Below, piece by piece: positions 49,701-64,000 of a stretch of DNA of 64,000 nucleotides. Made by a program: the position numbers and the translations under genes. The number at the start of each line of letters is the position of its first letter. Position 1 is the first letter of the stretch. The stretch comes from Kryptolebias marmoratus. Lineage: Eukaryota > Chordata > Actinopteri > Cyprinodontiformes > Rivulidae. Below the pieces are notes generated by a model that saw only the letters and a list, made by a program, of their open reading frames with translations, was not told the origin of the DNA and searched no databases. The DNA lies in contig NC_051431.1 in NCBI RefSeq assembly GCF_001649575.2, positions 23,918,094 through 23,982,093 of the forward strand, in the 5' to 3' direction.

Positions 49701-51897
49701 GTTAGACTTTTTTTAGGAACAGATGAGCAACCTGTAGTCCACAAAGTTACACCCAATGAAACCTTTTTATATACAGGTGATTAACGTAAATTGTGTAACC
49801 ATCAAAGATTTATTTATTTATTACAAATTTCCAGTCTGTAATGATACAAAATAAAGATTAAAGGGACACGCGTGCACACTGAAGTTGCCGGAAACATGAC
49901 ACAAAGTGGCAAAAAATCTGTCAGATCCTCTTTTTATTAGCACTTAATCTGATGGAGATAGAAAAATAATTATGAGATGGTTAGAAGAATAACAAACCCT
50001 CTAACTCACATCTAAAGCCCTTTAGGTGTTAATTTATCCTGACTAATAAAAGATTTATTAGATCTGTCTGTGAAGGTGTGAATGTGCCTGTTGAGCCTCG
50101 TCTCATGTTACCTCATCACCTGCACATACGCACAGCAACATAAATTTAACGAGTAGCTGGTTTTTAACCTTGTATCAAGCTTTTAAGTCAATTTAACCCT
50201 TTCTTTTTGTGCAGCAAATTTTAATCTACAACAGTTTTACACACTGAATGAAGCAAAGTATTGTATAAAATTGCAAATAATAAAAAAACCTCTTAAGTTT
50301 AATTTTTTCTGAAAATGTGTTGAATTTGAATATGTTTACAGCTGTTTAATGAATTTGATTTATTAATATACAAACACTATGCAAAGGTTGGAAGCATTTT
50401 AGATGGTATTTTATCCCATTCCTCCTGCTAACACCTATTACAGTGAGCAATAATTTAAAGTTTAGACTTTCACATTCCCAAATTTTCCACATTTATAATG
50501 GGAAACAGGTCAGGACTGCAGGTCACTTCATTACAGACATCCTCTTCTTCATCATCAATCATGCCTTTGCATGGTACATGATGGTTCATGATGAAGAAGA
50601 GGATGTCTGTGCATTGCAGTAACATTAGGAAGTGTGCTCTTGAAGTTGCTCTATAATCTCTGCTGAAGTTTTCTGCTGTGATTGAAAAAATATTTTTGCC
50701 GAAAACATGGCAACAACATGACTTAAAAAAAAAATTAATGAAATTTAAACCAAAAACTGGGGTACTGCTTCAGATGACCATATTCTACATTTTTACCGGT
50801 GGTCAGTTCAGCGGTTTTGTAATCCTGAGGTTGCAGGTTCGAGCCTAGGTTGCAGCTGGAACCTGGGCTTGCTCGCTGTTTGCTCTCTGTGACAACGCCT
50901 GAAGAAGGGATCACCCAAAAGAACTTACTTGCTTTGCTCTATATCGACACCTCGAGTCCAGAGGGATCAACATTAATTCTAAAAAAAGTTAAAATACTTT
51001 TCTTTGTTTGTGCTTTTAGTCTGCACATTATAGTTTTAAGTGGCATTAGTCTTAACCTTGTCTTTGTGTTGTCTTAATGAGTGTAATAATTTATTCTATT
51101 TTGATCTGTATTTTACACTCTAAAGGCCAATCTGTGCACTGCGAATCAGCCTGGACTATAATTGTGTCAACATGTATGAGTGTGTGTCTGTCTTTGTTAA
51201 TGCCTGACACTTGCCCTTATACAACCCAACAATAAATAAAAAATTTAATGTTTTAGATTTTCTGCTGCAGTAAAAGAAATGTGGCAATCTTTTCAAATCC
51301 ACTTTGAGTAACCATTCAATCATTTTTCTCAGGGGTTTGTTGACAAACTGTTGATCATGTGAGACTAATCTTTAATGAATAGTGCCTTTGAGTGAAATTA
51401 TAATTACCTAATAATATCAGCTCTTTGAAATAACATCATACTAATTTCACCTTATAAGTAGTCATAAATTACCCCTGTCTCAACTGTTTTTAGAATATGC
51501 TGCAGCCCTAAAATACAGGATTCGACAAATAATAACCAAAGAATTAAAGTTGGTTATAAAAACAGGAACTATGTTGGGTTTTAACTATTTGCAATGAAAT
51601 AAAAGGCAAATAATTGAAGAAATCTCTGCTTTCCTCATTTTTACTCCCATACCGTTTTAACTTCAGCTGACTGAGGCTGTAAACTGCATTGTACAAACAG
51701 ATAAAATCCCCCAGTCAGCTGAAGTCAGGAATCAATCAAAGCATGTGATGATCAGCCCTGAAGTCTTGTGTCTCACCCTGGTGTCTGGAGCACTTCTTAT
51801 CTGTGACTCCTGTGTCCGGACCCCGGCCCAGAATCACAGCTCGTCCATCCTCCAGAGGAATCAGGGTCCCAGAAACGCCAACCAGCGAGCACGACAT
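40716..51897 (-). CDS. pnkp: Bifunctional polynucleotide phosphatase/kinase (DNA repair)
   Basis: Predicted 600-residue nuclear DNA end-repair enzyme (human 521); it removes 3'-phosphates and adds 5'-phosphates. Seventeen exons: 51777-51897, 49552-49598, 49038-49316, 48630-48908, 47096-47175, 46598-46655, 46350-46457, 46187-46258, 45954-46002, 44959-45029, 44746-44838, 43261-43357, 43112-43173, 42897-43006, 41188-41275, 41032-41099 and 40716-40836. FHA domain 1-97 (LGRGPDTGVTDKKCSRHQ) for XRCC1/XRCC4 binding; lysine/serine- and acid-rich linker to about 225, longer than human; HAD phosphatase from 243 with D247-x-D249; kinase Walker A GYPAAGKST (448-456); C-terminus FRQFSEG as in human. Oddity: motif I reads DIDGC, where DxDGT is usual. 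Intron 9 carries a solo LTR next to its donor. Coding exon 1 is duplicated at 61897-62012. Confidence 0.94.
43730..43990 (-). mobile_element. Non-LTR retrotransposon 3' fragment, inverted relative to 17780-18125
   Basis: The minus-strand frame gives RLRWFGHVQRRDSGYIGRR, nearly the same as the plus-strand fragment in nudt8. 5'-truncated and inactive, in pnkp intron 11. Its coding sense matches pnkp transcription. Confidence 0.75.
44170..44243. repeat. Half foldback MITE
   Basis: Only the right half of the 1607-1810 family (TTGGAGCAGAGAAACACC to GAGGACCAAGGTTGG). A similar half-element is at 9000-9066. Both start at TTGGAGCAGAGAAAC, suggesting a shared deleted form. Confidence 0.6.
45536..45931 (+). 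mobile_element. Solo LTR, 396 bp, in pnkp intron 9
   Basis: Starts TGTAATGGG and ends CCACAACA, the TG...CA ends of an LTR, flanked by a 4-bp duplication CCAC (45532-45535 and 45932-45935). Inside, in plus orientation, are a TATA-like GGTATAAGAAGG near 45784-45795 and an AATAAA near 45872, in the correct order for U3-R-U5. A CTGACCCCTCCT block is repeated twice. No internal retroviral or Gypsy genes are present, so it is the product of LTR-LTR recombination. Class is not assigned. Confidence 0.8.
47560..48115 (+). mobile_element. LINE reverse-transcriptase fragment (FADD region)
   Basis: With frameshifts the plus strand reads IIKFADDTTPVGLI, ADWCKDHNLT, ELIIDFRRRHGD, FLGTYISEDLT and LLRAFYHCCTERVLTYCLTAWY, the RT palm and thumb of a common fish LINE. 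Truncated at both ends and inactive, in pnkp intron 4. Confidence 0.75.
48120..48370. repeat. Dispersed repeat in pnkp intron 4
   Basis: Contains CTATGACCTTGAACTTTGACCTTGA and GACGGGACAGACGGACAAACAG, the wording of a high-copy fish repeat. It directly follows the LINE fragment and may be its 3' region. Confidence 0.45.
48419..48611. mobile_element. Foldback MITE, same family as 1607-1810
   Basis: Starts CAGCGGTGTCCAACCCTGG and ends with its diverged inverse (...GGGGCACCACTG). Flanks ATTTAATG and ATTTACAG match at 6 of 8 positions, a decayed 8-bp target duplication. It ends 19 bp from the pnkp exon 4 donor (48629). Confidence 0.75.
50533..50610. repeat. 78-nt hairpin in pnkp intron 1
   Basis: ACAGACATCCTCTTCTTCATCA at the left is the exact reverse complement of the right end (TGATGAAGAAGAGGATGTCTGT). 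Pairing continues imperfectly towards a small loop near CCTTTGCATGG. It has the size of a microRNA precursor but lies within a dispersed repeat, so a transposon origin is likelier. Confidence 0.6.
50797..51240 (+). mobile_element. Possible tRNA-derived SINE
   Basis: GTGGTCAGTTCAGCGG resembles a pol III A box and GGTTCGAGCC at 50836-50845 is a good B box at the right spacing. The body is unrecognised and an AATAAATAAA tract lies near 51231. No target duplication was identified. Confidence 0.35.
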
Positions 51898-52090
51898 TTA
51901 AACAACTCCTTCAGCGCCTTTGAACAACTATTTTAGAAGGTAAACATGGGAGTTTTTTTCACTCAGTTGTGGTCTGGCTGCGTCTGTTTTAAAGACGTAA
52001 TGACAACAATGCTGAATTCGTGTTAAATAGTTTTTGTTTTTAGTCCGTTCACAAACTGTGAATAAATTGTTTGGTCTAAAATCAATTAAA
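51898..52090. promoter_or_regulatory. Bidirectional promoter of pnkp and tcaf
   Basis: The pnkp ATG (51897, minus) and the probable tcaf 5' exon (plus, donor at 52205/52206) are only about 200-300 bp apart and divergent. The same block, including both gene edges, is repeated at 62015-62230. No TATA box seen. Transcription starts are inferred, not shown. Confidence 0.5.
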
Positions 52091-63399: not shown

Positions 63400-64000
63400 G
63401 TAGGTGGGGGTTGTTTCCTCTTCAGGCCCAGGCGGAGGGAAGGGAGGGAACAGCAGTGGCTTTTAACAGCCTGTGGGAAGAATCTATTTTCTCGTCTGTT
63501 AGTTTTTGTTTTGATTAGTTTGAACCTTTTACAAGATGGCAGGGGGAAGAATAAATGGTTGGGTCTTTTAAAATACAGTTGGTTTTCTTTTGAACACCAC
63601 CTGAGTAGATATCCCTGAGGGCAGGTAGTGTTGAAACAAAGATGTGATCTGCTGCCTCCTCTATTTGCTGCAGGTCCTTCCTGTTTTCGCCTGTGCAGAT
63701 GACGGACCGCACTGCACAATGGTTGGTCAGAGGGCTTTTAATCGTTGGCCGGTAGAAACTGTTCAGCGGGTGATGAGGGAGGTGAGCAAGCTTTAGTTTT
63801 CTGAGGAAATAAGTCTCTGTTGTGCCTTTTCCACATGTTGGTAGATGTACGTGGACCAGGTCAGGTCACCTAGAAACCCAAAGCTCTCCGGCTTCCCCGC
63901 TTATTCTCCATGTATGCAGAATGCTCTATGCCTTGTGATTTCAAAAGCCTAGGATAAGTTCCTTGAATTTTGTGTATCTGAAGTCCAGGTTATTGTGAGA
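63400..64000 (-). mobile_element. LINE 3' fragment, longer copy
   Basis: The minus frames read RSVICTGENRKDLQQIEEAADHI, LPALRDIYSGG, LKDPT and KRFKLIKTKTNRRENRFFPQAV, the C-terminal end of the same LINE as at 52978-53400. Frameshifts make it inactive. Confidence 0.7.

Follow-up and report, generated by a model that had tools for sequence, protein, structure and literature searches.

Duplication and Candidate Conversion at Known tcaf Loci

The human genes TCAF1 and TCAF2 are described, in the excerpted text of PMC8387397, as lying in segmental duplications with candidate interlocus gene conversion. Among fishes, four tcaf genes are reported for notothenioids in excerpts of PMC10581778, and the modelling of interlocus gene conversion for 164 duplicated teleost genes is described in the abstract of PMC10503786. 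Several tcaf proteins per contig, named TRPM8 channel-associated factor homolog, are also found in other teleosts, with at least four in Mugil cephalus. The stretch analysed here, referred to as the window, consists of 64,000 nucleotides of the killifish Kryptolebias marmoratus (contig C2:23918094-23982093) and contains one complete tcaf gene, tcaf-A, together with two copies of a block that lies upstream of tcaf and includes the first coding exon of pnkp. A further 56 kb beyond the window was read as well (120 kb in total), with extended coordinates that continue the window numbering. The history of the locus very likely began with an old tandem duplication, after which interlocus gene conversion recurred, as judged from the patterns of identity described below.

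The killifish locus resembles that of human TCAF1/TCAF2 in having clustered tcaf copies with candidate conversion between paralogs. However, the human paralogs are >99.7% alike and their exchange site overlaps an enhancer mark (excerpts of PMC8387397), whereas the killifish array has copies in both orientations and its members are far more diverged. The teleost paralog study shares with this locus a homogenisation by conversion but treats a general set of genes (abstract of PMC10503786), in contrast to a local array with putative exon-sized tracts. Duplication and candidate conversion are already known for human TCAF from the same excerpts of PMC8387397, and the fish array adds another case. 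A search of the openly licensed literature found, among the top matches, no report of exon-wise homogenisation or of a pnkp block in fish tcaf. The locus would offer a compact example of a gene array homogenised in exon-sized portions, in a vertebrate that fertilises itself. For the gene family involved, the partner channel TRPM8 is reported in excerpts of PMC10581778 to be absent from fishes.

A Duplicated Block and a Second tcaf Gene

An initial annotation of the window had proposed that a segment starting at about 51527 recurs from about 61650 in the same orientation, with an offset of about 10.1 kb. Self-BLAST confirmed this arrangement and placed the true start at 51530, 3 bases off. The segment 51530-52478 recurs at 61650-62643 on the same strand, with 80.9% identity over 1,012 columns and an offset of 10,120, and this pair is the top non-self match within the window (bit score 916). 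Two weaker colinear repeats follow the block (52886-53029 with 63036-63182, 79%; 53125-53237 with 63755-63866, 82%). A search of the whole genome (680.65 Mb) with 51500-52300 returned four matches, namely both copies, 210 bp on the short contig C228 and 63 bp on C13. The features concerned are as follows.

51530..52478: block copy 1, with pnkp exon 1, the shared upstream region and the tcaf-A 5' untranslated exon (self-BLAST)
52150..52205, plus strand: end of the tcaf-A 5' untranslated exon with its donor (exon end and donor only)
52886..53237: two colinear repeat pieces of copy 1, in intron 0 (79% and 82%)
54286..61166, plus strand: tcaf-A, 11 coding exons, 918 amino acids (aa), identical to database protein P0002 of Kryptolebias marmoratus
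61650..62643: block copy 2, upstream of tcaf-B (self-BLAST)
62287..62342, plus strand: end of the tcaf-B 5' untranslated exon with its donor (exon end and donor only)
63036..63866: partners of the intron 0 pieces in copy 2 (79% and 82%)

As had been stated, exactly one tcaf gene, with its 11 coding exons at 54286-61166, lies between the block copies, and the second copy retains the donor of the tcaf 5' exon: a 19-base string across this donor occurs exactly twice in the 120 kb, with the last exon base at 52205 in one copy and 62342 in the other. From these features a further tcaf had been expected just beyond the window, near 64.9 kb, and the absence of any tcaf-like exon from the next 10 kb had been set in advance as the refuting outcome. 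When this test was run, a full-length gene was found instead, with its ATG at 65022 (C2:23983115), 1,022 bases past the window end. A repeat the size of a promoter was enough to predict, to within about 0.1 kb, a gene lying beyond the window. This gene, tcaf-B, ends at 74219 (extended) and has 11 coding exons encoding 918 aa with no stop; all 11 tcaf-A exons project onto it and are equal in length, and the internal boundaries have AG acceptors and GT donors. For tcaf-A, 704 aa gave matches above the cut-off to an M60-like N-terminal domain (PF17291, 88.6 bits) and to Peptidase_M60 (PF13402, 272.8 bits). HELGH is present in tcaf-A, tcaf-B and two further copies, C and D, and the motif occurs in 170 of 174 database proteins among the matches listed; we take HExxH to be a zinc-site motif.

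The duplication and the second tcaf are confirmed. The suggestion that a unit of promoter plus tcaf had been duplicated in tandem is supported, with the amendments that the block also holds pnkp exon 1, that the genes belong to an array of at least five copies and that the duplication looks old. The pnkp portion of the block comprises three features.

51777..51897, minus strand: pnkp coding exon 1 with ATG and donor (translation; PNK3P matches in nearby frames)
61897..62010 (upper end approximate), minus strand: pnkp exon 1 remnant of copy 2, with the ATG replaced, a 7-base deletion and the donor kept
51645..51843: 199-bp stretch identical to 61765-61963, covering the donor side of pnkp exon 1 and the adjoining intron

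The translation of pnkp exon 1 starts MSCSLVGVSGTLIPLEDGRAVILGRG and ends at the donor, and we take this exon to be the start of the FHA region. Its identity is backed by PNK3P matches in minus-strand frames at 47047-47238 and 44731-45072. The remaining pnkp exons lie left of 51530, and self-BLAST found no duplicate of that region next to the remnant in copy 2; the duplicated unit would thus have begun inside pnkp intron 1. At the other end, homology of the 3' flank extends to 61521 in tcaf-A and to 74498 in tcaf-B, and the unit probably ends between 61522 and 61649. The pnkp ATG (51897, minus strand) and the end of the tcaf 5' exon (52205, plus strand) are about 300 bases apart, and the upstream block may be a working two-way promoter.

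Identity between tcaf-A and tcaf-B Is a Mosaic

Four tracts of tcaf-A have no differences from tcaf-B.

54274..55790, plus strand: tract T1, 1,517 bp, 0 differences; exons 1-2 and intron 1
57082..57973, plus strand: tract T2, 892 bp, 0 differences; exons 4-6
59258..60100, plus strand: tract T3, 843 bp, 0 differences; exon 7, intron 7 and most of exon 8 (disputed, as intron 7 of contig C228 differs)
60353..61286, plus strand: tract T4, 934 bp, 0 differences; end of exon 9 to the 3' untranslated region

The coding sequences differ at 27 of 2,757 positions (stop included), all confined to exon 3 (19 of 292 bases), exon 9 (7 of 224) and exon 8 (1), with no difference in the other eight of the 11 exons. 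When the differences were placed at random, an identical coding run as long as the longest one observed was matched in 3 of 20,000 placements. Introns 1, 4, 5, 7, 9 and 10 are identical, identity in intron 2 is about 80%, and introns 3 and 6 are unalignable. As whole identical introns lie beside unalignable ones, purifying selection on the protein cannot explain the pattern. The combination of 81% identity in the flanks and unalignable introns 3 and 6 with a mostly identical gene body suggests an old duplication and calls, in addition, for either later homogenisation or an assembly effect.

A simple recent tandem duplication of promoter and tcaf, with no later exchange, would agree with the shared orientation, the 10,120-base offset and the eight identical exons. 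It is nevertheless improbable, because flanks at 81% and introns that cannot be aligned cannot share an age with 1,517 bp that lack a single difference. It is scarcely credible that the second block and gene are an assembler duplicate (haplotig) with no real second tcaf behind them. The redundant A-like contig C228 shows that such sequence exists in the assembly, but copy B is set apart by diverged flanks and introns, by insertions and by its differences in exon 3, and the species selfs to near-isogenic lines (excerpts of PMC4657215). Near-identical flanks would be expected of a haplotig, and this candidate was rejected given a block of only 81% identity and the state of introns 3 and 6. An exchange of exons only, via complementary DNA (cDNA), as the exon identities had suggested, was ruled out because whole introns within the tracts are identical; it is also disfavoured by the match between copies A and C in exon 11, which runs 9 bases beyond the exon on both sides.

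Under an old duplication with later conversion, a unit of about 10.1 kb, reaching from within pnkp intron 1 through pnkp exon 1 and the shared upstream region over the whole of tcaf, would have been duplicated in tandem in the ancestry of Kryptolebias marmoratus. The second copy has kept the tcaf upstream region, the donor and an open tcaf of 918 aa, and its pnkp exon has lost the ATG. The patchwork of divergence suggests that recent interlocus gene conversion between A and B then acted across small introns and exons.

An Array of at Least Five tcaf Copies

Peptidase_M60 matches in the whole genome number at least 18 and are located, among the matches listed, only on C2 and the short contig C228. 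The A-B pair is part of an array of at least five tcaf copies and not a lone duplicate. Copies A, B and C are in forward orientation, and D and E are in reverse, with additional pieces.

84630-92704 (extended), plus strand: tcaf-C, 11 exons open, without the usual ATG; contained in database protein P0125
105797-95816 (extended), minus strand: tcaf-D, 11 exons open; identical to database protein P0121
C2:24040639-24047567, minus strand: tcaf-E, exons 3-11 plus a partial exon 1
up to about 24080.5 kb of C2: pieces F (exons 1-4) and G (broken)

Over 1,574 bp, E shares 99.7% identity with F, and the two may be a single gene that was wrongly joined. A 989-bp exact repeat lies near E (C2:24039464-24040452 and 24048094-24049082), and runs of N near E, F and G are 1 to 4,215 long within the stretches examined.

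Two features of the array were noted in passing. At the position of the ATG in A, B and D, copy C reads ATT (region 84582-84641 extended), and an in-frame upstream ATG yields a hydrophobic leader, MVFYLLCSLFTLPLLI. A similar leader, MLCYQLCCLFTLPLLM, is carried by the Austrofundulus protein P0127, which suggests that the leader predates the split of both genera. A reverse-transcriptase-like frame, recognised by eye only, lies between B and C (L006:6810-7259).

Synonymous Divergence and Phylogenetic Grouping of the Copies

Synonymous differences of A from C and from D range over 0.40-0.87 per site in exons 1-10 and are 0.04 (A-C) and 0.09 (A-D) in exon 11; Fisher's tests of exon 11 against exons 1-10, on rounded counts, gave 3e-14 and 2e-11, respectively. 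Between C and D, the values were 0.07 in exon 1, 0.12 in exon 8, 0.14 in exon 11 and 0.27-0.43 in the other exons (exon 1 against exons 2-10, 2e-11). For the comparisons of E, exon 1 was taken from piece F, with E and F assumed to be one gene, and exon 2 was left out. This combined sequence, E/F, differs from C by 0.02 in exon 1 (4 of 645 bases), by 0.12 in exons 8 and 11 and by 0.28-0.44 in the other seven exons scored, and from A by 0.11 in exon 11 and 0.46-0.91 elsewhere. These values indicate that exon 11, between A/B and C, D and E, and exon 1, among C, D and E, are homogenised at synonymous sites. For exon 11 the patchwork would reflect an older exchange, between A/B and C/D/E, and for exon 1 an exchange among C, D and E.

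Phylogenetic trees were reconstructed from 20 sequences, comprising four of our own models and 16 of the 174 listed database proteins, hand-picked for killifish relatives and multi-copy species; five database duplicates of Kryptolebias copies were left out. In the exon 1 tree, Kryptolebias C grouped with D (0.98) and the two Austrofundulus copies grouped together (0.98). In the tree of exons 2-10, Kryptolebias C was placed with Austrofundulus P0127 (1.00), and D with a Nematolebias protein (0.90), beside the D-type copy of Austrofundulus (0.90). Grouping by species in exon 1 and by copy in exons 2-10 is the mark expected of conversion in exon 1, and it is seen in two genera. Homogenisation of exon 1 is well supported. 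The exon 11 protein tree likewise joined Kryptolebias C and D (0.81) and the Austrofundulus pair (0.86).

Several comparisons do not fit conversion of the end exons, or do not bear on it. The divergence of E/F from D is patchy (0.02-0.52), being low also in exons 5 and 7, and follows no simple end-exon rule. The pairs of Fundulus and of Anableps fall within their species in the exon 1 and exons 2-10 trees alike and so do not discriminate. The exon 11 tree does not unite A/B with C/D of their own species apart from the others, and it splits the Fundulus copies. In other genera, moreover, no exon is as similar between A-type and D-type proteins as exon 11 (73-86%). The exon 11 protein is too conserved for a tree, and the claim for this exon therefore rests on synonymous sites.

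It is conceivable, if doubtful, that the end exons of fish tcaf genes are generally kept alike within species by repeated conversion, even between inverted copies, with the middle exons diverging freely, and that at least one member of the family (copy C and Austrofundulus P0127) gained a hydrophobic leader and could leave the cell.

Reliability of the Assembly

The published assembly of the South Korean strain of Kryptolebias marmoratus spans 680,349,455 bases and was produced with ALLPATHS-LG (excerpts of PMC5223126), and the assembly analysed here probably descends from it. The tracts shared by A and B could be largely an assembly effect, in which two diverged tcaf copies exist and the path of one was used in both places. 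We regard this as a possibility of some weight, if not a probable one, and several points count in its favour and against real exchange. The assembly seems to have been built from short reads, and part of the A-B identity, above all that of intron 7, may be a wrong path. The identity is nearly all-or-nothing in the four tracts, where conversions of different age should give a range of values. The first 95 bases to the right of the single N at the L011 gap recur exactly 236 bases to the left of it, as a 96-mer graph would leave; at the other two single-N sites examined, C228 has an exact overlap of 456 bases and L017 has none. Doubtful joins occur further along the array, at the 989-bp exact repeat and at the two 99.7% alike pieces of tcaf E.

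Contig C228 bears on both sides of this question. It is a redundant A-like contig of 6,861 bases, in two pieces around one N, that match A at 55696-61647 and 61192-61859. It differs from A at 2 of 5,551 compared positions, at 59441-59442 (the end of exon 7), but within these A-type flanks its intron 7 is a sequence other than that found in A and B, which again favours an assembly effect. However, three of the four ends of its pieces lie exactly 95 bases inside stretches shared by A and B, namely the T1 end at 55790, the T4 end at 61286 and the start of the 199-bp stretch at 61765. The graph thus seems to branch, to the base, at the points of divergence between A and B. This speaks for genuine identity at these borders, and the reads probably share at least the final 95 bases of both T1 and T4. 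When T1 was searched against the genome together with the sequence to its right, ten matches were obtained: A, B, the beginning of C228 and some weaker matches of short length. None of them was a leftover contig holding a third A/B-type version of exons 1-2. Finally, neither the graded homogenisation of exons 1 and 11 nor the grouping by species of Austrofundulus exon 1 is produced by assembly error. The tracts shared by A and B are probably genuine, at least partly, while T3, in the main sequence, may be either a recent exchange or a wrong path. That C228 represents another allele is less likely, since in a selfed line a disagreement within the assembly is the easier explanation. In the case of such arrays, what short-read assemblies show is not to be taken at face value.

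Neighbouring Features

Elsewhere in the window, an inverted pair of 173 bases with 98.3% identity (17835-18007 and 43817-43989) is perhaps a mobile element. The region 34000-39660 contains a Trypsin match at 37705-38094, as well as complement-control and von Willebrand A-like segments recognised by eye, and is perhaps a complement factor B/C2-like gene beside pnkp.

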